Position numbers and translations under genes: made by a program. A stretch of 64,000 nt of DNA from Paludibacter sp. (GTDB taxonomy: Bacteria; Bacteroidota; Bacteroidia; Bacteroidales; Paludibacteraceae), in the NCBI GenBank assembly GCA_028710415.1, contig JAQTUE010000017.1:62001-126000 (forward strand). Reading direction: 5' to 3'. Positions 46,389 through 59,429 of the stretch are shown one piece after another (within the stretch, counting starts at the first letter, position 1; each line of letters starts with the position of its first letter). The notes below the pieces were generated by a model. The model had not been told where the DNA came from and ran no database searches. It was given only the letters and a program-made list of their open reading frames with translations.

Positions 46389-46916
46389 TTACCCCAATGT
46401 TTTTAAAATCTCCAGTCCTTCATTCCATTCCCCGAATCCGGATAGGTTGTTGATATGCCCTGCTTCCCCAATGTTGATAAATTTACTACCCCAGTTTTCA
46501 GCATAATTCTTAGACTTTTCAAGAGTTGTCCAGGGGTCATTGGAACTGGCAACCAGGATGGTCGGGAACAATACTTTGCTGTCAGGCGAGGTTACAAATA
46601 GTTTCTGATTTATTTTTCGTTGCACCAGCTCCACATCAGGAGGTGCTACCAGCATAGCCGCTTTTATTTTACCCTGATAGTTTTTTGCCCATTCTACAAC
46701 AGTCAGGCAACCCAGGCTATGTGCTACCAGCACCACTGTTTCAGGGTCGTATCCGGCAATTGCTTTCTCTACATTGCCTGCCCACTCGTCTATATCCGGA
46801 TGATCCCAGTCTTTTTGATGGATCCGTTTGAAATTTGGCTGTGTCTTTTCGAACTGTGTTTGCCAATGATCGGTACCTGAACCACCAAGACCCGGAACGA
46901 TAAAATAGTTTGTCAT
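46389..46916 (-). CDS. RBBP9/YdeN-family serine hydrolase
   Basis: A 175-residue alpha/beta hydrolase without a signal peptide. It opens with FIVPGLGGSGTDHWQT, typical of the RBBP9/YdeN family. The nucleophile serine lies in VAHSLGC and the catalytic His in GEAGHINNLSG. Length fits this small family. The natural substrate is unknown. No operon partner is adjacent. Confidence 0.85.
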   Translation of the reverse strand: MTNYFIVPGLGGSGTDHWQTQFEKTQPNFKRIHQKDWDHPDIDEWAGNVEKAIAGYDPETVVLVAHSLGCLTVVEWAKNYQGKIKAAMLVAPPDVELVQRKINQKLFVTSPDSKVLFPTILVASSNDPWTTLEKSKNYAENWGSKFINIGEAGHINNLSGFGEWNEGLEILKTLG

Positions 46917-47147
46917 ATGCTTTAAAATTTCAGGTTCATGTTACATTTTTTCTTTCTCAACTGCCCATCCAATTACTGGATTTGGTAGTTTGTAATCGAT
47001 AATGCAAAATTCCGGATTTTTAAGCATTGCTGCAATCGCACGATGATGGTAAATATATACCTTAAAAGAGGTAGGAAAATTTAATGATTCAGATAGATAG
47101 CAAGAATAGAATACGGATCTTTATTTCTTTAAATTGAAAAGTTAGTT

Positions 47148-47609: not shown

Positions 47610-48512
47610 TCAGTTTCTGAAAGCTGTTGTAGAGACTTTATTGTTTTTTGTACAGAATTTTTCAACTTCCTCATCAATAATCTGTAGTGCGACATCCACT
47701 TCCTTCATCCTGGCCTCCTTATTCTGATTCACCCTATCTTTAATATCTTCAAGATTATAAAGTGTCACATTAGGCAGTAACCCGATACTTTCATCCACAT
47801 CACGCGGGAAAGCCAGGTCAAGGATCAGTATTTTCTGATTGGGCGATATGTGCTCGGGCCTTACAATCAGGTGAGGTGCCGAAGTAGCTGTGATCAGCAC
47901 ATCCGTATAGTCCAAAAAAGGTTGCATCTGGTCCAGCTGGAATGCCTTGCAGCCATATTTCGCTGCCTGTTCCTGAGCCTTCTCAAAATAACGGTTTCCC
48001 AGAAAAATAGAGTAGGCACCCTTTGACTGCAGGAATTTAATAATGTCTTCATTCAGCTTGTTCACCCCAAGCAAGGTGATCAATGCATTTTTGAGTTGCA
48101 CTTTCTCCTGTACCAGGCATTCGATAACCGCCTGGCTATGGGATACGGCACCCTGCGATATGGCTGATTCAGTGCGGACCCTTTTCCCTACACTCAGGGC
48201 TGTCTGGAACAGTCGATGCAAGGATGAGGACAAGGCATGTTTTGAGCTCGAATCCTGATAGCAGTTTTTCACCTGTCCCTGGATGGCACCTTCCCCGATC
48301 AACGAAGACTCCAACCCTGAAACAACGCTAAAAAGGTGTTGGGCTATAGCCTCAGGCACACTTCCTTCTCCCCAGTAAACCTCAACACGGTCGCAGGTTT
48401 GCAACAATACATGAGGGGTATCTTTGGGCAGCTGAAGTGTCCTGAAAAACTGTTCACGCTCTGCCAGGGAGCTTGTTTTCTGGCTACTGGATATGTATTT
48501 GACCATTTTCAA
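47610..48512 (-). CDS. hemA: Glutamyl-tRNA reductase, short form lacking the C-terminal domain
   Basis: A 300-residue protein. The N-terminal catalytic domain has the thioester cysteine in LLQTCDRVEVY (Cys40) and GLESSLIGEGAIQGQVK. The NADPH-binding domain follows (ITLLGVNKLNEDI). The sequence ends soon after NLEDIKDRVNQN, where ordinary enzymes of about 420 residues continue into a long helix and a dimerisation domain. It converts Glu-tRNA to glutamate-1-semialdehyde, the substrate of hemL. Its 29-bp overlap with the precorrin-2 dehydrogenase gene ties it to siroheme synthesis. It lies last in the apparent cysJ-cysI-sirC-hemA direction. Confidence 0.88.
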   Translation of the reverse strand: MKMVKYISSSQKTSSLAEREQFFRTLQLPKDTPHVLLQTCDRVEVYWGEGSVPEAIAQHLFSVVSGLESSLIGEGAIQGQVKNCYQDSSSKHALSSSLHRLFQTALSVGKRVRTESAISQGAVSHSQAVIECLVQEKVQLKNALITLLGVNKLNEDIIKFLQSKGAYSIFLGNRYFEKAQEQAAKYGCKAFQLDQMQPFLDYTDVLITATSAPHLIVRPEHISPNQKILILDLAFPRDVDESIGLLPNVTLYNLEDIKDRVNQNKEARMKEVDVALQIIDEEVEKFCTKNNKVSTTAFRN

Positions 48513-48954
48513 TTAATTCTTTTATTTGATTCCGGATATCAACCGACTGATAAACATTCTGTGCATTTGAGGCAACTGAAATAGTGATATGTCCCTCTTT
48601 ATGAATGGCGGGTGATACAAAATCACACAGGAATGGCGCATCACACACACTGGTTAAAATATCCAGCGTCTCCGCATCCTGCTTTATCCTGCGGTTCAGT
48701 TCATGGTCGCCGGTGCAGACATATACCAGGAAGAATCCTTCCAGGTCGCTTTTCTCATACTCTTTTTCAATAAAAGTAAACGGCAGTTGTTTTATTTCAG
48801 GCGTAAATTCAGGGGCAATCACCGTCACCTGATTCACAAAGCGGGCCATGATGCTTCCTTTATGAGTCGCTACTTTTCCACCGCCAATAAGCAATATTTT
48901 CTTATTGGTAACATTGATGGAGATGGGTAGAAACTGTAAATCTTCTCTTTTCAT
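48484..48954 (-). CDS. Precorrin-2 dehydrogenase (siroheme synthase N-terminal type)
   Basis: A 156-residue Rossmann protein: LPISINVTNKKILLIGGGKVATHKG is the NAD-binding start, and DAPFLCDFVSPAIHKEGHITISVAS matches CysG-N/Met8. It oxidises precorrin-2 to sirohydrochlorin and in many members also inserts iron to give siroheme. At 156 residues it is shorter than CysG-N/Met8-type proteins of 200 or more, so a separate chelatase may do the last step. It overlaps hemA by 29 bp. Upstream, a TTGATTGG run separates it from cysI. Confidence 0.87.
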   Translation of the reverse strand: MKREDLQFLPISINVTNKKILLIGGGKVATHKGSIMARFVNQVTVIAPEFTPEIKQLPFTFIEKEYEKSDLEGFFLVYVCTGDHELNRRIKQDAETLDILTSVCDAPFLCDFVSPAIHKEGHITISVASNAQNVYQSVDIRNQIKELIENGQIHIQ

Positions 48955-49157: not shown

Positions 49158-50861
49158 TTATTCATAGAAATTCAACCCGGCAGTGGTGGCTTTAATATAC
49201 TCCTTACGAATTACGAAGTCTCCGAAATGCTCATCCTGCAACCTGGTTTGTGCAAAATCCTGAAGAATAGGGGTTAATACCTCGATAATTCCGTCTTCGT
49301 TCAGCATCTCCTTGTACAGTTTATTAAGCCTTTCACCGGTAAATCCGGCACCCAGGTAAATGTTGTATTTCCCGGGAGCCCTGCCTACCAGTCCGATCTC
49401 TGCCAGGTAAGGCCTGCCGCAACCATTGGGGCATCCGGTCATGCGAATGCTGATAGGTACTTGCAACAGATCGTTTTCTTCCAGCACTTTATCTATCCTG
49501 GTGATTAATGTTGGCAGGTAGCGTTCCGCTTCTGCAAAGGCCAGCCCGCAATAAGGCAATGCGGCACAGGCTATCGAGTTCTGACGGAGCATAGACAGGC
49601 TGGAAGCCTCTACAATCTGGTATTTCTGTAGCAAGGCATGTATGGCTTGTTTTTGTGATTCCGGGATACGCGCTATTACCACGTTCTGGTTCCCGGTAAG
49701 AATAAATGTCCCGGTATGGATAGCTGCTATTTCACGGATGGCTGTCTTGGCTAAATACCCGTCACGATCGATCAGCTTTCCCCCTTCCACAAATACGGTA
49801 TAATGCCAAAAACCATCAGCACTTTTTGTCCAGCCGTACTTATCACCCATGGTACTGAATTTGTAATCCCTCACAGGTTCCAGGGTAATGCCCGAAACAC
49901 GTTCTATTTCTGCTTTAAAGAAGTCAAGACCCAGTCGGTCAATGGTATATTTCAGCCGGGCATTCTTCCTTTCGGATCGGTTGCCATTGTCCCGTTGAAA
50001 AATAAGGATCGCTTCTGAAACATCCACTACTTTTTCTTTCGGGATATAGCCAACCACATCGCCGATACGCGGATAGGTGCTTTTATTTCCAAAACTATAG
50101 GCCATTCCCCCGCCTACCGACACATTGTACCCTGCTAACTTTCCTTTTTCAACTATGGCAATAAAACCAAGGTCATTGGACAGTACGTCGGTATCGTTCC
50201 GGGGTGGTACTGCAATCGCTATTTTAAATTTCCGTGGCAAATAAGTTTTGCCGTACAGCGGTTCTTCTTCCTTCTCCCCGCCTTCAAGCAGTTTCCCGTC
50301 TAGCCATATTTCATGATAGGCATTGGTCTGGGGTGTAAGATGCGCCGATATCCGTTTGGCATCTTCGGCGACTTCAGCATGAATGGACGACTCAAACGGA
50401 TTGGCCGAGCACATCACATTCCGGTTCACATCACCGCAGGCTGCAATTGTATCGAGCAGGGTTTTGTTTATTTCTTTTATGGTCGTTTTCAAATTCCGTT
50501 TCAATACCCCATGCAACTGAAAAGTCTGGCGGGTAGTGAATTTCAGGTTATGATCGGCATATTTTTCAGACAAAGCGTCTATGGCCAGCCATTGTTCGGG
50601 AGTAGCCACACCGCCCGGTATGCGGATTCGTATCAGGAAACTGTAAAGCGGTTCCAGCTTCTGACGCCTGCGTTCATTGTCCAGGTCGCGGTCTTGTTGT
50701 TGGTAGGTACCGTGAAACTTTATCAAGACCTGGTCATCTGCCCGTAATGAACCAGTCAGTGGATCTGTCAGGCTTTCGTTGAGTGTACCCCGCAGGTAAT
50801 TGCTGTTCTCCTTGATGGTTTCTAATGCCGAAGGTTTTGGGGTGTTTATGTTGTTGTCCAT
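49158..50861 (-). CDS. cysI: Assimilatory sulfite reductase hemoprotein subunit
   Basis: A 567-residue siroheme and 4Fe-4S enzyme. It has two repeated ferredoxin-like halves with TTRQTFQLHGV in the first half. The cofactor cysteines lie in ACAALPYCGLAFAEAERYLP and TGCPNGCGRPYLAEIGLVG. Together with CysJ it reduces sulfite to sulfide with NADPH. The order cysJ then cysI on one strand, with the siroheme genes just beyond, fits assimilatory sulfate reduction better than nitrite reduction. A 138-bp gap of AAATAGTAAATG repeats separates it from cysJ. Confidence 0.93.
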   Translation of the reverse strand: MDNNINTPKPSALETIKENSNYLRGTLNESLTDPLTGSLRADDQVLIKFHGTYQQQDRDLDNERRRQKLEPLYSFLIRIRIPGGVATPEQWLAIDALSEKYADHNLKFTTRQTFQLHGVLKRNLKTTIKEINKTLLDTIAACGDVNRNVMCSANPFESSIHAEVAEDAKRISAHLTPQTNAYHEIWLDGKLLEGGEKEEEPLYGKTYLPRKFKIAIAVPPRNDTDVLSNDLGFIAIVEKGKLAGYNVSVGGGMAYSFGNKSTYPRIGDVVGYIPKEKVVDVSEAILIFQRDNGNRSERKNARLKYTIDRLGLDFFKAEIERVSGITLEPVRDYKFSTMGDKYGWTKSADGFWHYTVFVEGGKLIDRDGYLAKTAIREIAAIHTGTFILTGNQNVVIARIPESQKQAIHALLQKYQIVEASSLSMLRQNSIACAALPYCGLAFAEAERYLPTLITRIDKVLEENDLLQVPISIRMTGCPNGCGRPYLAEIGLVGRAPGKYNIYLGAGFTGERLNKLYKEMLNEDGIIEVLTPILQDFAQTRLQDEHFGDFVIRKEYIKATTAGLNFYE

Positions 50862-50999: not shown

Positions 51000-52820
51000 T
51001 CAATAGACATCCAGTTGGTACCTTTTTTCCTTTTGTAAGTTATCAAAGTATTCCAGGGCCTGTTCTTTTTTCATCACTCCTTGTTTTTCAATGATCTTTA
51101 TAAATGCAGCCTGTACATCGCCAGCCATTTTCTTCATGTCGCCGCAGATATAAATATGTGCACCCTCTTCCACCCATTTGTAGATTTCCGGGGCATTCTC
51201 AAACAACCGTTGCTGTACATATTCTTTTTGGGGACTATCCCTCGAAAAGGCAACCGACATGTTAGTCAATGCTCCCGATTTAAGGTATTCCAGCCACTCA
51301 GCCTGGTACAGAAACTCCGATTCAAAGTTCCGGTTTCCAAAGAACAGCCAGCTCTTTCCACGTTTTTCGGATAACTCCCTGTGTTGCACAAAGGCACGGA
51401 AGGGGGCTATTCCGGTTCCTGCTCCGACCATGATGATCGGCGTTTCTTCGTTTTCCGGCAATCTGAATGCAGGGTTTGATTCTATAAACAGCTGTACGGT
51501 TTCATTTTCGATATTTACATCCGACAAATAGTTGGAACAGGTTCCATGCTTTAACCGGCCGTTGTCTTCAAACTTTACGATTCCAACCGTCAGGTGCAAT
51601 TCACCCGGATAGGCTTTCGGACTCGATGCTATGGAGTAATACCGGGCTTGCAATGGCCTGAGGAGTAGGATCAGTTCCTGGGCACTTAGCTTTGCCGGAT
51701 ATTCCTGGAACAAATCCACTATATCCCGGCCTTTCAGGTATTCCTTATACTTTTCAGGTTTCTCAACAAGTTTTTGAAGTTCAGCGTTAGGCTTTAAGTT
51801 CAGGTAACGGCCTATTACATCCGTAGTTATTTTAGAGAGTTCAAAATCACGGTAAAGTGCTTCGTAGAGTGTTGTTTTGTTTCCTTTCACATCAACCGGA
51901 GCAGAAGCCTGCTGCCCTGTAACCTGCAATACTTCGTTTACCAGTGCAACCGGATTTAATGGGATGATTCCGGCAGCATCGCCCGGTTCAAACAAAAGAT
52001 CCTTTGCCTCTTCTGTGTTCAGTTCCAGATGCAATGTCTGTCGTTCAGAACCTTTTCCATGCAGGGATATTTTTTCAAGTACCGGCGCCAGGAAGGGATT
52101 TTTCTTTGTGAAAGAAGATGCTTCAGTTTTTACAGTTTTTTGACCTGACTGATCCATGCGGAAAGCACGGGTAGCATTCGATGATTTCACCACACTATCC
52201 GTTGCAAAACTGGCAATAGTATCTTTCAGCCATTGTTCGGCAGGTTCTTCAAAATCGACATCACAGGCTATCATCGGCACCTTTTTGGTGGCACCTAGTT
52301 TCTCCAGTTGGCTGTCAAAATCTTTTCCGGTCTGGCAAAACTGGAAGTACGACGAGTCGCCCAATGCCAGTACGGCATAGTTGACTCCCTCAAGCCCGGG
52401 TGCCCTTTTGCTGAAAATATGCTCGTGCAGGCCTTTTGCCGCCAGGGGTGGTTCGCCTTCTCCATGAGTGGATACAATCACTATCAGGTTTTTCTCCGTG
52501 GGCAGGTCATGAAGTTTATAATTCTCCATGCTTTTAACGGTCACTGCCAATCCTTGTGCACTGGCTATCTCCCGGGCTTTCTTTGCCAGTCCTTCCCCGT
52601 TTCCGGTACGCGAACCATACAAAACAGTCAGTGACGGAACATTCTCAGCAATTGTAATAGTCTCGGTCTGCACAGGTTCTACTGCCCCGGCATGCTGAGC
52701 CAACTTCCCGGCCAGATAGCCAGATGCCCAGATCAACTGATCCCGGTTCATGGAACCGGTGAGTTTCGTAAACAGTTCTCTTTGATCGGAAGTTAATATA
52801 TCGGATAGTGATGTACTCAT
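51000..52820 (-). CDS. cysJ: Sulfite reductase (NADPH) flavoprotein subunit
   Basis: A 606-residue diflavin reductase. An N-terminal helical lead is followed by a flavodoxin domain (LTVLYGSRTGNGEGLAKK, then VSTHGEGEPP and LGDSSYFQFC) that binds FMN. Next comes an FAD domain with RYYSIASSP and HGTCSNYLSD and an NADPH domain with MVGAGTGIAPFRAFVQ. The C-terminus YFDNLQKEKRYQLDVY is typical of CysJ. It passes electrons from NADPH to the CysI subunit encoded downstream. A small DUF2061 gene lies 35 bp upstream, and the unit starts at the shared cys promoter. Confidence 0.95.
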   Translation of the reverse strand: MSTSLSDILTSDQRELFTKLTGSMNRDQLIWASGYLAGKLAQHAGAVEPVQTETITIAENVPSLTVLYGSRTGNGEGLAKKAREIASAQGLAVTVKSMENYKLHDLPTEKNLIVIVSTHGEGEPPLAAKGLHEHIFSKRAPGLEGVNYAVLALGDSSYFQFCQTGKDFDSQLEKLGATKKVPMIACDVDFEEPAEQWLKDTIASFATDSVVKSSNATRAFRMDQSGQKTVKTEASSFTKKNPFLAPVLEKISLHGKGSERQTLHLELNTEEAKDLLFEPGDAAGIIPLNPVALVNEVLQVTGQQASAPVDVKGNKTTLYEALYRDFELSKITTDVIGRYLNLKPNAELQKLVEKPEKYKEYLKGRDIVDLFQEYPAKLSAQELILLLRPLQARYYSIASSPKAYPGELHLTVGIVKFEDNGRLKHGTCSNYLSDVNIENETVQLFIESNPAFRLPENEETPIIMVGAGTGIAPFRAFVQHRELSEKRGKSWLFFGNRNFESEFLYQAEWLEYLKSGALTNMSVAFSRDSPQKEYVQQRLFENAPEIYKWVEEGAHIYICGDMKKMAGDVQAAFIKIIEKQGVMKKEQALEYFDNLQKEKRYQLDVY

Positions 52821-52855: not shown

Positions 52856-53086
52856 CTAGATTTCATAATCGGGTTCGGTCACTTTTTCACGGCCAATGTT
52901 GATTTTATTCCATAGCCTTTCGTGAAAATAATACAGCGTAAATTTGGTGAGTATCTCCACCCCGCTGATCGACATGGCAATAGTAAATTTTCCTGTTATA
53001 AAATAGGATATCACAAAGGTGTCAATGGTTCCGGTAATTCGCCATGAAATTGATTTCAGAACGCTTCGGTAGTTTTTATCTTTCAA
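52856..53086 (-). CDS. DUF2061 small membrane protein
   Basis: A 76-residue protein with the DUF2061 pattern: SISWRITGTIDTFVISYFIT, then a second hydrophobic stretch (ISGVEILTKFTLYYFHERLW). It is predicted to span the inner membrane twice. Its function is unknown. DUF2061 proteins are often encoded next to sulfate-activation genes, and here it is the first gene of the cysJ-cysI unit, directly behind the shared cys-type promoter. It is 35 bp from cysJ. A role in sulfate or sulfite metabolism or transport is an inference from context. Confidence 0.85.
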   Translation of the reverse strand: MKDKNYRSVLKSISWRITGTIDTFVISYFITGKFTIAMSISGVEILTKFTLYYFHERLWNKINIGREKVTEPDYEI

Positions 53087-53120: not shown

Positions 53121-53177
53121 CAAAATTAGACTTAACCCCCGGTTCCCACCATACCCGCATAGCGGTAAATTTATACC
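53121..53177 (-). promoter_or_regulatory. Cys-type promoter and operator of the DUF2061-cysJ-cysI unit
   Basis: On the minus strand the -7 box TAATTTTG (53121-53128) is preceded by exactly 18 bp and GGTATGGTG (53147-53155), then 8 bp and an imperfect palindrome written on the plus strand as GGTAAATTTATACC (53164-53177). The same arrangement and spacing occur upstream of cysD. GGTATGGTG takes the place of a normal TTTG at -33, suggesting an activator-dependent promoter. The protein that binds is unknown. Confidence 0.72.
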
Positions 53178-53409
53178 CTGTTGATGGTATACTTAGAGTT
53201 ATAAATATACAATTCAGCGACTTAAACTTGAGCCGAATGATTCCGGGCTCATGTTTTAAAAGAATTAAGTGTGATTGCAACATTCTACGGGTCCTCCGGT
53301 TCAAAACGAGCATTCCTGGACCCATTCTCCATGATGTAACTGTATTATCTGAATTGTAATATCTTTTTCATTTAGATAACATTTAGATATCCCACCCTTA
53401 TTATGATAT

Positions 53410-53464
53410 GGGATATCTAAGGGATATCTAAGGGACATTTAAGGGATATCTAAGGGATATCTGC
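53410..53464. repeat. Five tandem 11-bp units GGGATATCTAA
   Basis: Five head-to-tail units of exactly 11 bp, four of them with the palindrome GATATC (the middle one has GACATT). The period equals about one helical turn, so all would face one side of the DNA. It lies between the cysH stop and the shared cys promoter. No gene is seen in the surrounding ~230 bp. Confidence 0.85.
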
Positions 53465-53693
53465 ATTCTCATGGAGATATGATGAAAAAAACAATTGATG
53501 GAAAAGAATCGAATATAGATGAATTAAGAACTATCGGAAAGTGTACTTCCTGTTATATTGTAAAGTTCAAGTCACTTAAAAACAGGAATCCAATCCTTTT
53601 TAGTGGAATGGTTTAAGGCTTCTAATTTACTAAATCAGCAATATGCAACGTTCTATGATTTATGTCGAATAAGAGTTGGTGCGAATCACCTGA

Positions 53694-54395
53694 TTATCTC
53701 CGGTGTAATCCGCATTCCTTCTGATCTGGATTTTCCCACCACCAGCGTCCGGCACGGATATCCTCACCGGGTTTAATGGCACGGGTACAGGGCTGGCATC
53801 CAATGCTTGGAAATCCCTGGTCCTGAAGTTTATTATAAGGCACCTTGTTTGTTTTGATATACTCCCACACCTGTTCTTCGGTAAAATGAATCAGCGGATT
53901 AAGTTTTATCAGTTGATTTCCTTCGTCCCATTCCACCAGCTGTACTCCCTGGCGGGTAATGGACTGTTCATTCCTCAAGCCGCAAATCCAGACTTCCAGT
54001 CCTTGGAATGCACGCTTCAGGGGATTGAGCTTACGCACCCGGCAACAGGCTTTGCGCTGGTCGATCCCATTGTAGAAAAGGTTGATCCCTTCGGTCTTCA
54101 CCAGCTCCTCCACCTCTTTATAGTCGGGAAACATCACATCCAGATGAATGTCGTATTTAAGATTTGTCTTTTCAATCAGGCTGTACGTTTCAGGAAACAG
54201 GCGTCCGGTATCGAGGGTAAAAATACGCGTAGATTTGTCGATTTTCACGATCAAATCAGTCAGCACCTGGTCCTCAATACTTAGGCTCGAGGACAGTGCT
54301 ATTTTTCCTTTGTATTCAGCCAGAAAATACCGCAGTACCTCTTCGGGGGACTTGCCTTCAGACTGTTTGTTGAGTTGTTCTATATTTTGATTCAT
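53694..54395 (-). CDS. cysH: APS/PAPS reductase, iron-sulfur type
   Basis: A 233-residue CysH protein with the PP-loop-like start (KIALSSSLSIEDQVLTD) and FTLDTGRLFPETY. Two cysteine pairs, KACCRVRK and GCQPCTR, mark the 4Fe-4S group of adenylylsulfate reductases, and the catalytic cysteine lies in ECGLH at the C-terminus. It therefore likely reduces APS directly to sulfite with thioredoxin. This fits the absence of an APS kinase gene here, and a thioredoxin gene lies at 60 kb. An ATG 42 bp upstream would overlap cysN; the chosen start lies 4 bp after the cysN stop. Confidence 0.92.
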   Translation of the reverse strand: MNQNIEQLNKQSEGKSPEEVLRYFLAEYKGKIALSSSLSIEDQVLTDLIVKIDKSTRIFTLDTGRLFPETYSLIEKTNLKYDIHLDVMFPDYKEVEELVKTEGINLFYNGIDQRKACCRVRKLNPLKRAFQGLEVWICGLRNEQSITRQGVQLVEWDEGNQLIKLNPLIHFTEEQVWEYIKTNKVPYNKLQDQGFPSIGCQPCTRAIKPGEDIRAGRWWWENPDQKECGLHRR

Positions 54396-54399
54396 GATA

Positions 54400-55755
54400 T
54401 TAAATAGTAAATGTCTCATCTTCCAGGTCATGCACAATCATACCTGCCCCAACGGTTTCAAAGGTGTTTTCATCAATCAGTACCAGGCTACCTGTAATAC
54501 GGTTTTCTCCATAAGAATCATATTTCAGCGGCTTTAGAGTTTTGATTGTAATATGGGCAATATCATTTACTTTCACCGTTTTATCATCCAGTATATTCTC
54601 CAGGCTGTTGATATTTACCTTGTAATGGACTTCCTTAATCACTGCCCGGGTTTCCTCGGTGGCATGACGAATAATGTATTTACCTCCTACATTAAGGGGT
54701 TTATGATTCAACCAGCAGATCAACAGGGAAACATTGGCACTGACTGTTGGCTTTGGTTCATCCAGCTTAACAAGAATATCCCCGCGGCTAATATCCACAT
54801 TATCTGCCAGGCGGATTGTAACCGACTGTGGTGTATAGGCTATGTCCAATGATTTATCCCCTTCGTCGATGGCTATGATCCTGGATTGAGTATTGGAAGG
54901 CAGGACTTTTACTTCATCACCAACCTTAAAAGTACCTCCCGAAATACGGCCTGCATACCCTCGGTAATCATGAAAATCATCAGTGTGCGGGCGGATAATG
55001 TATTGCACCGGAAAACGTGCCGGCAATTTGGTCTCATCTTTGCGTACCGGCAAAGTCTCGAGCATATGCAACAAGGTATCCCCGGTATACCATGGAGTCT
55101 TTGCGGAAGCATCCACTACATTATCGCCATCACGGGCTGAGATCGGTATAAAGATGACATTCTTAAGTTTCAGGATAGCCGCAATTGCCTCGTATTCTGT
55201 TTTAATATCGTTGTACACGGTTTCTGAGAAATCCACCAGATCCATTTTATTCACCGCCACAATCACATTCGGGATTTGCAATAAGGACGCAATATAGGAA
55301 TGGCGTTTGCTTTGTTCAATGATACCATTGCGGGCATCAATCAGGATTATGGCCACATCAGCGGTAGAAGCACCGGTAACCATGTTCCGGGTATATTCAA
55401 TATGCCCGGGAGTATCGGCAATAATAAATTTACGCTTTGGGGTAGCAAAATAGCGGTAAGCCACATCAATGGTAATACCCTGCTCCCGCTCAGCGCGCAA
55501 GCCATCGGTAAGCAATGCCAGGTTCACTTCTTCACCCCCACCCAGCCTTTTGCTGGCATCTTTCACTGCCTGAAGCTGATCTTCGAAGATGGATTTACTG
55601 TCATACAGCAACCGTCCTATCAGGGTACTCTTTCCATCATCCACACTCCCTGCCGTACTGAAGCGAAGCAGTTCCATATCCAGGTAACCCCCAACTCCGT
55701 CAGTTGACTGAGAACTGGAGATCGTATTGTTTTGTATATTTTTATTTGAAATCAT
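54400..55755 (-). CDS. cysN: Sulfate adenylyltransferase subunit 1 (GTPase)
   Basis: A 451-residue EF-Tu-like GTPase. G1 is AGSVDDGKSTL, the switch II region is DTPGHIEYTRNM and G4 is VNKMDLV, followed by two beta-barrel domains. GTP hydrolysis by CysN drives APS formation by CysD. The protein ends after the barrels without a CysC kinase extension, so PAPS is not made by this gene. It lies between cysD (94 bp upstream) and cysH (4 bp downstream) on one strand. Confidence 0.95.
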   Translation of the reverse strand: MISNKNIQNNTISSSQSTDGVGGYLDMELLRFSTAGSVDDGKSTLIGRLLYDSKSIFEDQLQAVKDASKRLGGGEEVNLALLTDGLRAEREQGITIDVAYRYFATPKRKFIIADTPGHIEYTRNMVTGASTADVAIILIDARNGIIEQSKRHSYIASLLQIPNVIVAVNKMDLVDFSETVYNDIKTEYEAIAAILKLKNVIFIPISARDGDNVVDASAKTPWYTGDTLLHMLETLPVRKDETKLPARFPVQYIIRPHTDDFHDYRGYAGRISGGTFKVGDEVKVLPSNTQSRIIAIDEGDKSLDIAYTPQSVTIRLADNVDISRGDILVKLDEPKPTVSANVSLLICWLNHKPLNVGGKYIIRHATEETRAVIKEVHYKVNINSLENILDDKTVKVNDIAHITIKTLKPLKYDSYGENRITGSLVLIDENTFETVGAGMIVHDLEDETFTI

Positions 55756-55792
55756 AAATCTAATTTTTAATGATAGTACGGCTATATCTTAT

Positions 55793-55840
55793 TCCCCTTT
55801 AGGGGTTCTTATATTCCTCCCCTTTAGGGGTCGGGGGTTC
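55793..55840. repeat. CCCCTTTAGGGG repeats between cysN and cysD
   Basis: Two palindromes CCCCTTTAGGGG spaced by about 20 bp, the second followed by TCGGGGGTT. The core matches that at 43.83 kb. It lies within the operon, so its transcript would form a short hairpin. Confidence 0.7.
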
Positions 55841-55849
55841 TTTCTTCAA

Positions 55850-56755
55850 TCAAAAATATCCCGCTTTCTTCCGGTCTTCCATGGCAGCCTCGGAACGTTT
55901 ATCATCGGACCTGCCACCACGTTCAGTAATCCTGGAACTGGCTATCTCATCAATAATATCCTCGAGTGAATCGGCAGTGGAAAGGGTTAAGCCTGTACAG
56001 GTTATATCGCCAATGGTGCGGCAGCGTACTTTGCGTACTTCAACTTTTTCAGTGGGCTTGCGTGGTATGGCATCCAATGCGGCATACCAGATTCCATCCC
56101 GTTCGAATACTTCCCGGGTGTGGGTATAGTAAAGCGAAGGCAGGGGAATGTTTTCCTGCAAAATATATTGCCAGATATCCATTTCCGTCCAGTTGCTGAT
56201 CGGGAATACCCGGAAGTGCTCACCAAGTTGTTTCTTGCCATTGAAGATATTCCAAAGCTCAGGGCGTTGGTTCTTAGGATCCCACTGGCCAAATTCATCA
56301 CGATGGGAGAAGAAACGTTCTTTGGCACGTGCTTTCTCTTCATCACGACGGGCTCCACCCAATGCCGCATCGAACTTATGCTTTTCAAGCGTATCGAGCA
56401 GGGTTACAGTCTGAAGTTTATTCCGGCTGGCGGAATAGCCTTTCTCTTCCACTGCACGTCCTGTTTCAATGGATTCCTCCACGGAACCTACAATTAAATC
56501 AGCGCCCAGGAGTTTTACCAGTTCATCCCGATAGGTAATGGTTTCTTCAAAATTATGCCCCGTATCGATATGAACGAACGGGAATGGGATGGCAGCAGGA
56601 TAAAAAGCCTTGTAAGCCAGATAGGCCATGACGATGGAATCCTTGCCTCCTGAAAAAAGGAGCACGGGTTTTTCGAACTGGGCTGCCACTTCACGCATGA
56701 TAAAGATGGATTCGGACTCTAATTCTTTCAGATGGGTTAGTTTATAGGAGCTCAT
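55850..56755 (-). CDS. cysD: Sulfate adenylyltransferase subunit 2
   Basis: A 301-residue PP-loop ATP pyrophosphatase. LLFSGGKDSIVMAYLA is the P-loop-like motif, FVHIDTGHNFEET follows and FRVFPISNWTEMDIWQY is the family's C-terminal mark. It makes adenylylsulfate from ATP and sulfate with CysN. It is the first gene of cysDNH. Upstream lie ~160 bp of repeat words and then the shared cys-type promoter, so its leader is long. Confidence 0.96.
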   Translation of the reverse strand: MSSYKLTHLKELESESIFIMREVAAQFEKPVLLFSGGKDSIVMAYLAYKAFYPAAIPFPFVHIDTGHNFEETITYRDELVKLLGADLIVGSVEESIETGRAVEEKGYSASRNKLQTVTLLDTLEKHKFDAALGGARRDEEKARAKERFFSHRDEFGQWDPKNQRPELWNIFNGKKQLGEHFRVFPISNWTEMDIWQYILQENIPLPSLYYTHTREVFERDGIWYAALDAIPRKPTEKVEVRKVRCRTIGDITCTGLTLSTADSLEDIIDEIASSRITERGGRSDDKRSEAAMEDRKKAGYF

Positions 56756-56920
56756 GGTTTGAAGGGTTTGAAGTTTGAAGTTTGAAGTTTGGAGTTTGGG
56801 GTTTGAGGTTTGTCTATCGAATGTTATGGTTAAATCAAATCTACAGCAAATAGTAAATGGTAAATGAAAAAATAGTAAATGGTTTTATGGTAAATGATAA
56901 AATAGTAAATCTATTTAATT
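56756..56920. repeat. TTTGAAG and AAATAGTAAATGG repeats in the cysD leader
   Basis: TTTGAAGTTTGGAGTTTGGGG-type units directly before the cysD start are followed by TAGTAAATGGTAAATG units. Both would lie in the 5' leader of the cysDNH transcript. Confidence 0.75.
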
Positions 56921-56928
56921 TGACAATG

Positions 56929-56986
56929 CAAAATTACGGTATACACTTCTACTACACCATACCGATGAGGGGGTATATTGTATACC
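56929..56986 (-). promoter_or_regulatory. Cys-type promoter and operator of cysDNH
   Basis: On the minus strand the -7 box TAATTTTG (56929-56936) follows 18 bp after GGTATGGTG (56955-56963). After a further 8 bp comes a perfect palindrome with a 3-bp centre, GGTATATTGTATACC (56972-56986). Spacing of all three parts equals that upstream of DUF2061-cysJ, as does the absence of a normal -33 box. Confidence 0.75.
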
Positions 56987-57133
56987 GCTTTTAGGGTATT
57001 TACCTTTGAAACAACAGCAAATCGGTATAATTATGCTGTAATTCCACCAAACATACATGCAGGAATCGACTTGCAAAGACTACCATAATTTAAAAAGGGT
57101 TATGATTCCAAAGAAATATTATTGACTAATAGC

Positions 57134-57164
57134 GAACATATGTTCATAACTATTCGTACCTTTG
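57134..57164 (+). promoter_or_regulatory. Promoter and palindromic site of the DUF134 gene
   Basis: TACCTTTG (57157-57164), followed by CAG, matches the Bacteroidota -7 consensus exactly. A perfect 12-bp palindrome, GAACATATGTTC (57134-57145), sits where the -33 element would be. A repressor bound there would block this promoter. Autoregulation by the DUF134 protein is possible but unproven. Confidence 0.6.
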
Positions 57165-57190
57165 CAGTCACAACTCAACAAACACTTTCC

Positions 57191-57601
57191 ATGGCCCGTC
57201 CAAAACAAGACCGTAAAATATGCAACCCACCCCTGATGCAGGGATTTAAACCTTATGGCATTCCAAGGAATACACTCAGTTCATTATCGTTGCTTTTTGA
57301 TGAATACGAGGTAATCCGTTTGCTGGATTACGAAGGAATGAACCAGGAACAGGCTGCTGAGAAAATGAATGTTTCCCGTCCTACCCTGACCCGAATCTAT
57401 GAGAAAGCCCGCAAAACAATTGCAACTGCTTTTGTGGAAGGTAAAATGATACTGATAGAAGGTGGGAATGTCCAGTTTGAAAAACAGTGGTTTCGTTGCA
57501 AGCGGTGTTTTAAACTGGTAGGCGGACTGGAGAATCATGTACGGTGCAAGGATTGCAAGAACTTCTGCAATGATGAACTGACACCGATAAACAGAATATG
57601 A
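57191..57601 (+). CDS. DUF134 (UPF0251) helix-turn-helix protein
   Basis: A 136-residue protein with the UPF0251 opening (MARPKQDRKICNPPLMQGFKP), a sigma-like helix-turn-helix (EAAEKM-type AAEKMNVSRPTLTRIYEKAR) and a C-terminal cluster of cysteines (FRCKRCF, then VRCKDCKNFC) that may bind metal or an iron-sulfur cluster. It probably regulates transcription. It is followed by a NifX-like gene, a common neighbour of the family. A longer frame starts 69 bp upstream but would begin before the promoter box, so the ATG after it was chosen. Confidence 0.85.
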   Translation: MARPKQDRKICNPPLMQGFKPYGIPRNTLSSLSLLFDEYEVIRLLDYEGMNQEQAAEKMNVSRPTLTRIYEKARKTIATAFVEGKMILIEGGNVQFEKQWFRCKRCFKLVGGLENHVRCKDCKNFCNDELTPINRI

Positions 57602-58484: not shown

Positions 58485-59429
58485 ATGGCATCCAAAAAAC
58501 TCATTACAAAACAAGTACACAGAATCATCTATTTAATTCTGGCAGTAGCTTGTTTAACCCCGTTTATTACTCCGCCAATAGCACTGTTTTTAGGATTGGC
58601 ATTTGCACTTACATTTGGCTCGACGTTTCCATTGTTTAATAAGAATGCTTCAAAATACTTACTGCAGATATCGGTAGTGGGATTGGGATTTGGCATGAAT
58701 TTATCCGATTCAGTCAAAGCAGGGTCCGATGGCATGTTATTTACCCTGTTTTCGGTAGTATCAGTCATGTTCATTGGTATTTTGGCAGGCAAGTGGCTTG
58801 GTGTTGCCAAAGTGCCATCCTATCTGATTGCTTCCGGCACGGCTATTTGTGGCGGGAGTGCCATAGCAGCGGTTGGGCCGATTGCCAAAGCCAACGAAAG
58901 CGAAATGTCGGTATCGCTGGCAACTATATTTGTGCTGAATGCAATAGCCTTGTTCTTATTCCCTGTCCTGGGTCATTGGTTGCATCTTTCACAACACCAG
59001 TTTGGCATGTGGGCCGCCATTGCTATTCACGATACCAGCTCGGTGGTAGGTGCCGGAGCAACTTTTGGGGAAGAAGCCCTGAAGGTAGCAACAACCGTGA
59101 AGCTCACCCGGGCGTTGTGGATCATACCATTGTCTTTATTCACCTCCATTTATTTTAAATCGAAGGGTGATAAAGTAGTCATTCCCTGGTTTATTTTGTT
59201 CTTTATACTGGCCATGGTAATGAACTCATACCTCACAATCCCGGCAAAGATAACCCATGAGATTGTGACTGTTTCCAGGCAAAGCCTGACCATGACACTT
59301 TTCTTTATAGGTGCCGGGTTATCACGGTCAACGATTAAGATGGTCGGTGTAAAACCACTCGTATTGGGTATCATCCTTTGGTTTTTTATTGCCGTAATTA
59401 GCCTGGGCTTTATTTATTTTTTGTATTGA
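58485..59429 (+). CDS. YeiH-family putative sulfate exporter
   Basis: A 314-residue inner-membrane protein with about nine to ten hydrophobic helices. Family marks are SGTAICGGSAIAAVGPI and IHDTSSVVGAGATFGEEAL. YeiH-type (UPF0324) proteins are annotated as putative sulfate or sulfite exporters, although direct transport evidence is limited. Lying a few kilobases from the sulfate-reduction genes, it could relieve sulfite build-up. It follows the thioesterase by 14 bp. Confidence 0.85.
   Translation: MASKKLITKQVHRIIYLILAVACLTPFITPPIALFLGLAFALTFGSTFPLFNKNASKYLLQISVVGLGFGMNLSDSVKAGSDGMLFTLFSVVSVMFIGILAGKWLGVAKVPSYLIASGTAICGGSAIAAVGPIAKANESEMSVSLATIFVLNAIALFLFPVLGHWLHLSQHQFGMWAAIAIHDTSSVVGAGATFGEEALKVATTVKLTRALWIIPLSLFTSIYFKSKGDKVVIPWFILFFILAMVMNSYLTIPAKITHEIVTVSRQSLTMTLFFIGAGLSRSTIKMVGVKPLVLGIILWFFIAVISLGFIYFLY

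Follow-up and report, generated by a model that had tools for sequence, protein, structure and literature searches.

Sulfur genes in Bacteroidales share a tandem upstream site, and this site marks a sulfur regulon that is well supported at the sequence level; its regulator is probably a LuxR-type family that we call RR1/RR2. In the window (the whole stretch of 64,000 nucleotides analysed here), the site lies upstream of both cysDNH and DUF2061-cysJI (Table 1) and consists of a 16-bp inverted repeat, TACC-N8-GGTA, present twice with 6-7 bp between the copies. The full layout, TACC-N8-GGTA-N6/7-TACC-N8-GGTA-N23-TAnnTTTG, is found at all three exact sites of the genome, with 23 bp from the proximal GGTA to TAnnTTTG and 22-23 bp (about two helical turns, on the same face) between the centres of the two repeats. 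Each repeat has the 7-2-7 form, two inverted heptamers with a 2-bp gap that read TACC....GGTA over 16 bp.

The original prediction had placed one equally spaced control element in front of both units, and its components were confirmed on the minus strand by reading the window sequence. Before cysD, TAATTTTG and GGTATGGTG correspond in reverse complement to 56929-56936 and 56955-56963, respectively; before DUF2061-cysJ the same elements lie at 53121-53128 and 53147-53155, and the coordinates bear out the proposed 8-bp and 18-bp spacings at both places. The outer part had been parsed as GGTA-N6/7-TACC, and here the proposal held only partly: three arms are real, and a fourth was missed, namely another TACC at N8 upstream of the outer GGTA in 3/3 exact sites. 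Because of this extra TACC, and because the GGTA to TACC distance varies, we dropped GGTA-N6/7-TACC as the operator; it is the spacer between two repeats plus their inner arms. Within the window, the core CACCATACC-N8-GGTA was found three times at up to one mismatch versus 0.05 expected from shuffles (the third match, with one mismatch, is at 59028), and single TACC-N8-GGTA repeats were found seven times versus 0.64 expected.

Table 1 Genes and putative control elements of the sulfur units, in window coordinates.
Feature	Position	Strand	Basis
Putative distal operator of cysDNH, TACC-CTAAAAGC-GGTA	56983..56998	-	motif search
Putative proximal operator of cysDNH, TACC-CCCTCATC-GGTA, 7-bp spacer to distal	56960..56975	-	motif search
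-7 element TAATTTTG of cysDNH promoter, 23 bp past proximal GGTA	56929..56936	-	motif search
cysD, sulfate adenylyltransferase subunit 2	55850..56755	-	NCBIfam TIGR02039
cysN, sulfate adenylyltransferase subunit 1	54400..55755	-	NCBIfam TIGR02034
cysH-type APS/PAPS reductase; mechanical ORF, start codon maybe further in	53694..54437	-	NCBIfam PRK02090, TIGR02055
Putative distal operator of DUF2061-cysJI, TACC-ATCAACAG-GGTA	53174..53189	-	motif search
Putative proximal operator of DUF2061-cysJI, TACC-GCTATGCG-GGTA, 6-bp spacer	53152..53167	-	motif search
-7 element TAATTTTG of DUF2061-cysJI promoter	53121..53128	-	motif search
DUF2061 membrane protein, TTG start	52856..53086	-	Pfam PF09834
cysJ, sulfite reductase flavoprotein	51000..52820	-	Pfam flavodoxin, FAD_binding_1, NAD_binding_1
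cysI-type sulfite/nitrite reductase haemoprotein	49158..50861	-	Pfam NIR_SIR
Sirohaem-synthase-like NAD-binding protein	48484..48954	-	Pfam PF13241; sirohaem role by reading
Glutamyl-tRNA reductase-like gene (haem/sirohaem precursor)	47610..48512	-	Pfam GlutR_N, Shikimate_DH
Putative distal operator before serine hydrolase gene, TACC-TCTTTTAA-GGTA	47058..47073	-	motif search
Degenerate putative proximal operator before serine hydrolase gene, TACC-ATCATCGT-GCGA	47036..47051	-	motif search
-7-like element GAATTTTG of serine hydrolase promoter	47005..47012	-	motif search
Serine hydrolase	46389..46916	-	PF06821

Across the 6.28-Mb genome, the exact tandem occurs at three places, each preceding a sulfur operon (cysDNH, DUF2061-cysJI and an ABC-transporter/sulfite-reductase operon), versus 0 for the control. 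The pattern CAAANNTA-N18-CACCATACC-N8-GGTA has exactly three perfect matches genome-wide (the two window sites and another sulfur operon), and at three mismatches it was found at 8 places versus 2 in the reversed control. Allowing up to three mismatches in the tandem yielded 16 rows: 12 are distinct sites that lie between genes in promoter orientation and are spread over five contigs, two are reverse readings of the same sites, and two fall inside one coding frame (C58:17710 and C58:16996) and were excluded from the 12. The reversed-pattern controls gave 0 and 0 matches in this genome. The targets, named partly by profile matches and partly by reading, are cysDNH, DUF2061-cysJI, a PstS/PstCAB-like ABC transporter with a TusA-fused sirohaem reductase, cysK, cysK-metY, a cysE-like gene, thiS-thiF, a TonB receptor, DUF4395, a second PstS-like protein, the serine hydrolase and the LuxR-type regulator RR1 itself. 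In 9/12 sites the proximal copy carries degenerate arms (TGAC, TACT, GCGA), and two of these sites also have a changed distal arm. The same site precedes functionally linked operons, more often than chance would allow and across species, as the original prediction had anticipated for a shared element.

The tandem is also conserved in other genomes. In a public collection, 39 stretches carry the exact tandem, with the 23-bp spacing in 35/39 even though 22-24 bp was allowed, and sulfur-type genes follow in 25/39 by reading of translations. Genes resembling the serine hydrolase recur behind the tandem site in relatives, also by reading, and in G236 sites stand before metY-like and hydrolase genes. 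One carrier of the site, L051, is a Dysgonomonas isolate. Several matches were judged to be chance or unrelated and were kept in the counts: L064, L054, L075 and L088 in the collection (a gammaproteobacterium, or 22-bp spacing), and G076 and G092 in the family draw, the latter with mostly head-to-tail repeats.

According to PMC7366714, Bacteroidota housekeeping promoters carry TAnnTTTG at -7 and TTTG at about -33. The -7 element is common to both, whereas here the end of the proximal operator replaces or overlaps the -33 place. By reckoning from the -7 element, the repeats are centred near -42 (proximal) and -65 (distal); with the start site predicted in this way, they match the class II arrangement, in which a site is centred near -41.5 at a fixed distance from the core promoter. 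The 23-bp distance in 12/12 sites of this genome was demanded by the search pattern. The proposal that GGTATGGTG occupies -33 as part of the shared element did not hold in general: we ruled it out as a defining -33 replacement, as it is present at 3/12 sites while the others read GGTATTTTA, GGTATTTCG, GGTATTGTT, GCGATTGTG and similar. By manual count, TTG directly follows the proximal repeat in 4/12 sites and no -33 TTG is seen in 8/12, so that these promoters often, though not always, lack the -33 TTG.

Among the literature matches listed, judged by title and the start of the abstract and with subscription papers mostly outside the scope, we found no description of the control of sulfur assimilation in Bacteroidales, in agreement with the original statement that no named regulator was known for this site. 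Cysteine and sulfur master regulators such as CysB (LysR) and CymR (Rrf2) have regulons that join sulfate assimilation, cysteine synthase and transport, and resemble the present one in scope, while their DNA-binding families and operator types differ. LysR-, Rrf2- and DtxR-type binding was weighed by operator shape and set aside. Another likeness is offered by the E. coli NarL/NarP operators, which share the 16-bp TACC-N8-GGTA inverted repeat: NarL binds 7-2-7 sites, an engineered one being TACCCCTAAAGGGGTA (PMC4549865), the NarL/NarP heptamer is TACYYMT (PMC4886647), and 7-2-7 sites lie upstream of activated genes at -40 to -49 (napF) and -38 to -47 (yeaR) (PMC4549865). As the half-operator has this published architecture, a LuxR/GerE protein is indicated; NarL/NarP operators are bound by a GerE dimer, and a GerE dimer is predicted here. 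The present system differs in having two 7-2-7 sites in tandem at a fixed distance, sulfur-gene targets, degenerate receivers, another phylum and other promoter elements.

The genome encodes nine GerE proteins above the Pfam cut-off, and RR1 and RR2 carry a C-terminal GerE helix-turn-helix (PF00196; 50.5 and 53.7 bits, cut-off 23.5) with nearly identical recognition helices. RR1 has no Pfam Response_reg match and RR2 scores 24.0 bits, below the cut-off of 30.2; Asp55 and Lys106 are invariant in 18/18 aligned family rows, while the receiver acidic pair reads D/E-N or is reduced in another way. A cysteine at RR1 position 128, at the receiver-linker junction, is nearly invariant. The predicted fold (AlphaFold, Foldseek) is receiver plus GerE and matches LiaR/VraR/RcsB/NarL. 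The closest solved structures, LiaR/VraR/RcsB, share this overall architecture, but identity is ~20%, RR1 is without one of two acidic pocket residues, and their targets differ from the sulfur genes described here. Among the loci inspected by eye, none has a kinase gene directly adjoining RR1 or RR2; L158 has a kinase-like gene, accompanied by a regulator of its own, ~2.5 kb from the RR locus.

RR1-type loci adjoin cysK, metY, malY-like, thiF or anSME-like genes, and in 4/8 of them a site stands no more than 300 bp upstream, compared with 0/21 loci of RR2, a paralogue without the site that often adjoins mnmA. In an order-level draw of 393 genomes, the RR family is present (E<=1e-50) in 12/16 site-bearing genomes versus 28/377 others (p 3e-10), or by genus in 8/11 versus 17/196 (p 2e-6), p-values that overstate independence because the genomes are related. 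A Fisher test without three genomes (11/11, p 5e-6) was set aside. Among site-bearing genomes, 4/16 in the order draw (G236, G285, G402, G442) and 3/14 in the family draw (G039, G076, G092) have no RR-family match at the thresholds used, and the family scores <200 bits in 8/35 genomes reached via collection matches; conversely, no site was found in 28/40 family-bearing order-draw genomes by a search with two mismatches and a 6-bp spacer only. RR1 is absent from six family-draw genomes with the exact tandem (G051, G130, G148, G182, G188 and G190, with G182 and G188 82% complete), which have RR2-type proteins only. RR1 as sole regulator is thus not upheld, and either of the two paralogues, or another protein, may bind.

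We consider it likely that a sulfur-assimilation regulon is controlled here from class II-type activator promoters, with NarL/FixJ-type dimers, most likely RR1/RR2, on the tandem 7-2-7 repeats. Two dimers of this LuxR/GerE regulator would sit on the two TACC-N8-GGTA repeats, at about -42 and -65, and, during a shortage of cysteine or reduced sulfur, would bring in the Bacteroidota RNA polymerase at promoters that have a discernible -7 element (TAnnTTTG or near) and in many cases no -33 TTG. The geometry and gene content make activation under sulfur limitation plausible. RR1/RR2 keep the phospho-acceptor Asp55 and Lys106 without the usual acidic pair, and RR1, which lies under its own type of site in several genomes, could provide feedback. 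The tandem sites with their fixed geometry, the content of the regulon, its conservation, the sites ahead of RR1 and the co-occurrence are observed; binding of the sites by RR1/RR2, an activating effect and the sulfur-shortage signal are what we infer from these sequences. That another transcription factor binds the repeat, with RR1 merely one of its targets, seems unlikely to us: the six genomes without RR1, the 4/16 without the family at the threshold used and the nine GerE proteins would fit it, and the site upstream of RR1 may mark a target only. Against it stand the published NarL 7-2-7 geometry of the half-operator, the GerE domain of RR1/RR2, the clustering of RR1 with sulfur genes and the co-occurrence of family and site.

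Slightly less credible still is a repressor, a GerE protein that would block polymerase at about -42 under plentiful sulfur and be released on starvation. Repressor operators usually tolerate variable positions, and the rigid 23-bp distance (35/39), the placement of the two repeats, near -42 and -65, on a single face and the missing -33 TTG in 8/12 sites are expected of activation. On the other hand, the proximal repeat borders on the -33 region, where an overlapping position would fit repression too, TTG is retained there in 4/12 sites, and NarL represses at the frdA promoter (PMC4549865). That the two units lie side by side in the window would fit a chance or recently duplicated promoter, yet this origin is exceedingly improbable: N8, spacer and N18 vary in sequence from site to site, and it is contradicted by the spread of 12 sites over five contigs, their retention in other genera and controls of 0.

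Beyond the activator reading, it is conceivable, if rather doubtful, that a phosphorylation-independent, pseudo-receiver NarL-like pair (constitutive RR2, self-amplifying RR1) acts as the sulfur master regulators of Bacteroidales, sensing thiol or sulfide directly, perhaps via Cys128, and driving one regulon for sulfate activation, sulfite reduction, sirohaem, cysteine, methionine, thiazole sulfur and sulfate-ester use. A recognisable operator with a candidate regulator would make the regulon readable from sequence in other Bacteroidales, would allow sulfur sensing by an atypical LuxR-type regulator to be tested cleanly by genetics, and would give hints of function for unnamed partners (DUF2061, DUF4395, the serine hydrolase and the PstS/PstCAB-like transporters, which may carry a sulfur oxyanion). 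A set of single sites in other genera, TACC-N8-GGTATTGTG, is possibly a sister regulon and was set aside.

Direct reading of the sequence shows the minus strand upstream of cysD to be TACC-CTAAAAGC-GGTA-TACAATA-TACC-CCCTCATC-GGTA-TGGTG-N18-TAATTTTG, and that upstream of DUF2061-cysJ to be TACC-ATCAACAG-GGTA-TAAATT-TACC-GCTATGCG-GGTA-TGGTG-N18-TAATTTTG. All parts of the originally predicted element are present on this strand, but the most upstream TACC had been missed; with that TACC added, the element becomes a tandem pair of 16-bp inverted repeats (TACC-N8-GGTA) separated by 7 bp before cysD and 6 bp before DUF2061-cysJ. The outer "palindrome" formerly described at cysD is, in the full tandem parse, the inter-copy spacer plus its flanking arms. 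The cysD leader, between promoter and start, is ~170 bases long, and much of it consists of low-complexity direct repeats whose units resemble GTTTGAAGTTT and GTAAATGGT.

A genome-wide search for the full string of the original prediction returned three perfect matches. The exact tandem was found at three places, with none for the reversed-pattern control (spacer of 5–8 bp allowed), and the third perfect site belongs to an ABC transporter/sirohaem reductase operon (locus L009) whose transporter may import a sulfur oxyanion instead of phosphate. TACC-N8-GGTA alone occurs 7 times in the window versus 0.64 expected. Allowing ≤3 mismatches, scored over 22 fixed bases, the tandem gave 16 rows genome-wide (controls 0 and 0), which resolve into 12 distinct intergenic, gene-facing sites, two reverse readings duplicating sites already in the count, and two coding matches within one large coding frame on contig C58. 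The distal repeat keeps both TACC and GGTA in 10 of the 12 sites; the proximal repeat is exact in three and has one altered arm in nine. The cluster holding the candidate LuxR-type (GerE) regulator RR1 also contains, by reading of translations, a sulfatase-like frame together with a radical-SAM gene (Pfam Radical_SAM and SPASM) that looks like a sulfatase maturase. In this genome metY, thiS, thiF, TonB, sulfatase and DUF4395 were named by reading translations, and profile checks were made in relatives for metY (L062) and DUF4395 (L157).

Targets of the tandem site in the Paludibacter genome, with neighbouring and related features (G, genome, G000 being the Paludibacter genome; C, contig; L, locus)
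Feature	Location	Remark
cysDNH		site target
DUF2061-cysJ-cysI		site target
PstS-like binding protein, PstC-, PstA- and PstB-like transporter, sirohaem reductase	L009:8827-14911	site target; last gene fused to TusA domain
TonB receptor, cysK, RR1 (same cluster)		site targets; TonB by reading
RR1	G000:C91:18847-19503	between cysK and TonB gene
Second PstS-like protein		site target
cysK-metY		site target; metY by reading
cysE-like gene		site target; best profile TIGR01172, 165 bits, under curated 211
thiS-thiF		site target; by reading of translations
DUF4395 gene		site target; by reading of translation
Serine hydrolase	window 46389-46916	site target
Low-complexity direct repeats	window 56757-56930	in cysD promoter-to-start stretch
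Small-protein gene	window 57122-57601	divergent from cysD across operator region; weak PRK04217 and sigma-70-like similarity, under both cut-offs
Hemerythrin-like gene (by reading), then LuxR-type regulator	L043:31-1349; L056:4640-5958	adjoining tandem site
Divergent nitrogenase-type genes	L149:3-4638 (G023)	tandem sites between them

Scanning 84,980 genomes, one per species, for the exact tandem with TAnnTTTG 22–24 bp on yielded 39 stretches, all but two of them (an uncultured bacterium and a Marinobacterium) Bacteroidota by title. Although three distances were permitted, 35 of these have 23 bp; three have 22 bp (two Flavobacteriales, one Adhaeribacter) and one 24 bp. Conservation in other species, which had been proposed as support, was borne out, with sulfur-type genes downstream in 25/39 stretches (by reading): cysJ or DUF2061 units, PstS-like transport operons, metY, hemC-like, thiS, DUF4395 and serine hydrolase genes. 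The remaining 14 divide into TonB-type, other and truncated cases and probable chance matches. In the order search (≤2 mismatches), 15 of 26 loci, all from other genomes and with some matches lacking a locus, precede cysK, metY or related enzymes, PstS-like, anSME-like or hydrolase genes, four precede TonB receptors and seven have no clear target. A weight matrix built from the 12 own sites found 25 distinct places scoring >30, six of them training sites, in 13 loci (333 kb over the two strands) picked for a candidate regulator or site and therefore a biased sample; reversed sequence gave two matches scoring at most 19.

NarL "7-2-7" operators have the same geometry as TACC-N8-GGTA, an engineered high-affinity site being TACCCCTAAAGGGGTA (PMC4549865), and PMC4886647 gives the NarL/NarP heptamer as TACYYMT. 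Because of this geometry, GerE proteins were sought as candidate binders; PF00196 has 10 matches in the genome, nine over the cut-off. RR1 relatives adjoin metY, thiF, malY-like or anSME-like genes, and a tandem site lies ≤300 bp upstream of RR1 in 4/8 loci, while in two further loci RR1 is downstream, on the same strand, of a site-bearing metY gene. Its paralogue RR2 (36% identity) adjoins mnmA in many genomes of the genus and lacks an upstream site in all 21 loci examined. Both proteins keep Asp55 and Lys106 in 18/18 alignment rows and do not keep the normal acidic pair; Cys128 is nearly invariant and the recognition helix almost identical between them. The RR1 structure model (mean pLDDT 89) resembles LiaR, VraR, RcsB and NarL.

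In the family draw (n = 200), the exact tandem occurs in 14 genomes (reversed control in one), and proteins of the RR1/RR2 type (visual count, best E ≤ 2.4e-25) in 11/14 of these versus 57/186 others (Fisher p 5e-4, kinship ignored); the three misses are one 55%-complete genome and two with unrelated-looking site matches. In the order draw (n = 393), 16 genomes have the site (≤2 mismatches, 6-bp spacer; one control hit overall), the protein family (E ≤ 1e-50) occurs in 40, and site and family coincide in 12, with kinship ignored in all tests (p 3e-10; 2e-9 without the own genome; by genus 8/11 versus 17/196, p 2e-6). The 39 collection stretches represent 36 genomes by accession, and of the 35 searched (the genome of L082 was left out) 27 score ≥200 bits for the family and one more 147, its gene adjoining the site; four of the seven without it are outside Bacteroidales by title. 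Against the simplest RR1 story count six site-bearing genomes (G051, G130, G148, G182, G188 and G190) with RR2-type proteins only, and G236, where the family is absent at E ≤ 1e-50 and sites precede metY-like and hydrolase genes.

With TAnnTTTG taken as the −7 element (PMC7366714), the repeats centre at ~−42 (proximal) and ~−65 (distal), on the same face, matching the zone from which NarL activates napF and yeaR through 7-2-7 sites (PMC4549865). Eight of the 12 own sites, all three exact ones among them, have no TTG after the proximal repeat; the other four do. Given these positions, the NarL precedent and the frequent lack of TTG, we favour a model in which two GerE dimers would activate the promoter from the proximal and distal repeats and RR1 would feed back on its own gene; activation, signal and binder are all inferred. 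Among the papers listed, with subscription literature thinly covered, titles and abstract openings contained no description of such a sulfur regulon in Bacteroidota; putative sulfur control through tandem NarL-type 7-2-7 sites and regulators whose receivers are degenerate would thus far be new, but its component kinds are already known.

Related elements occur elsewhere. Seven loci in other genera of the family (L024, L027, L028, L032, L035, L036 and L042) carry a single TACC-N8-GGTATTGTG-N18-TAnnTTTG element, with small changes in two, before feoAB-like, TonB-receptor-like and other genes (by reading; in the truncated genes of L035 and L042 the best profile match is FeoB, at a score under its cut-off), and may form a sister regulon under a related LuxR-type protein. 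At the hemerythrin-like/LuxR-type pairs, L043 has a TCCC/GGGA tandem variant upstream and L056 an exact tandem site just downstream. In G023, NifH and NifB pass NCBIfam cut-offs and a cut component-1 gene fails, which suggests a nitrogenase or nitrogenase-like system under putative tandem-site control.
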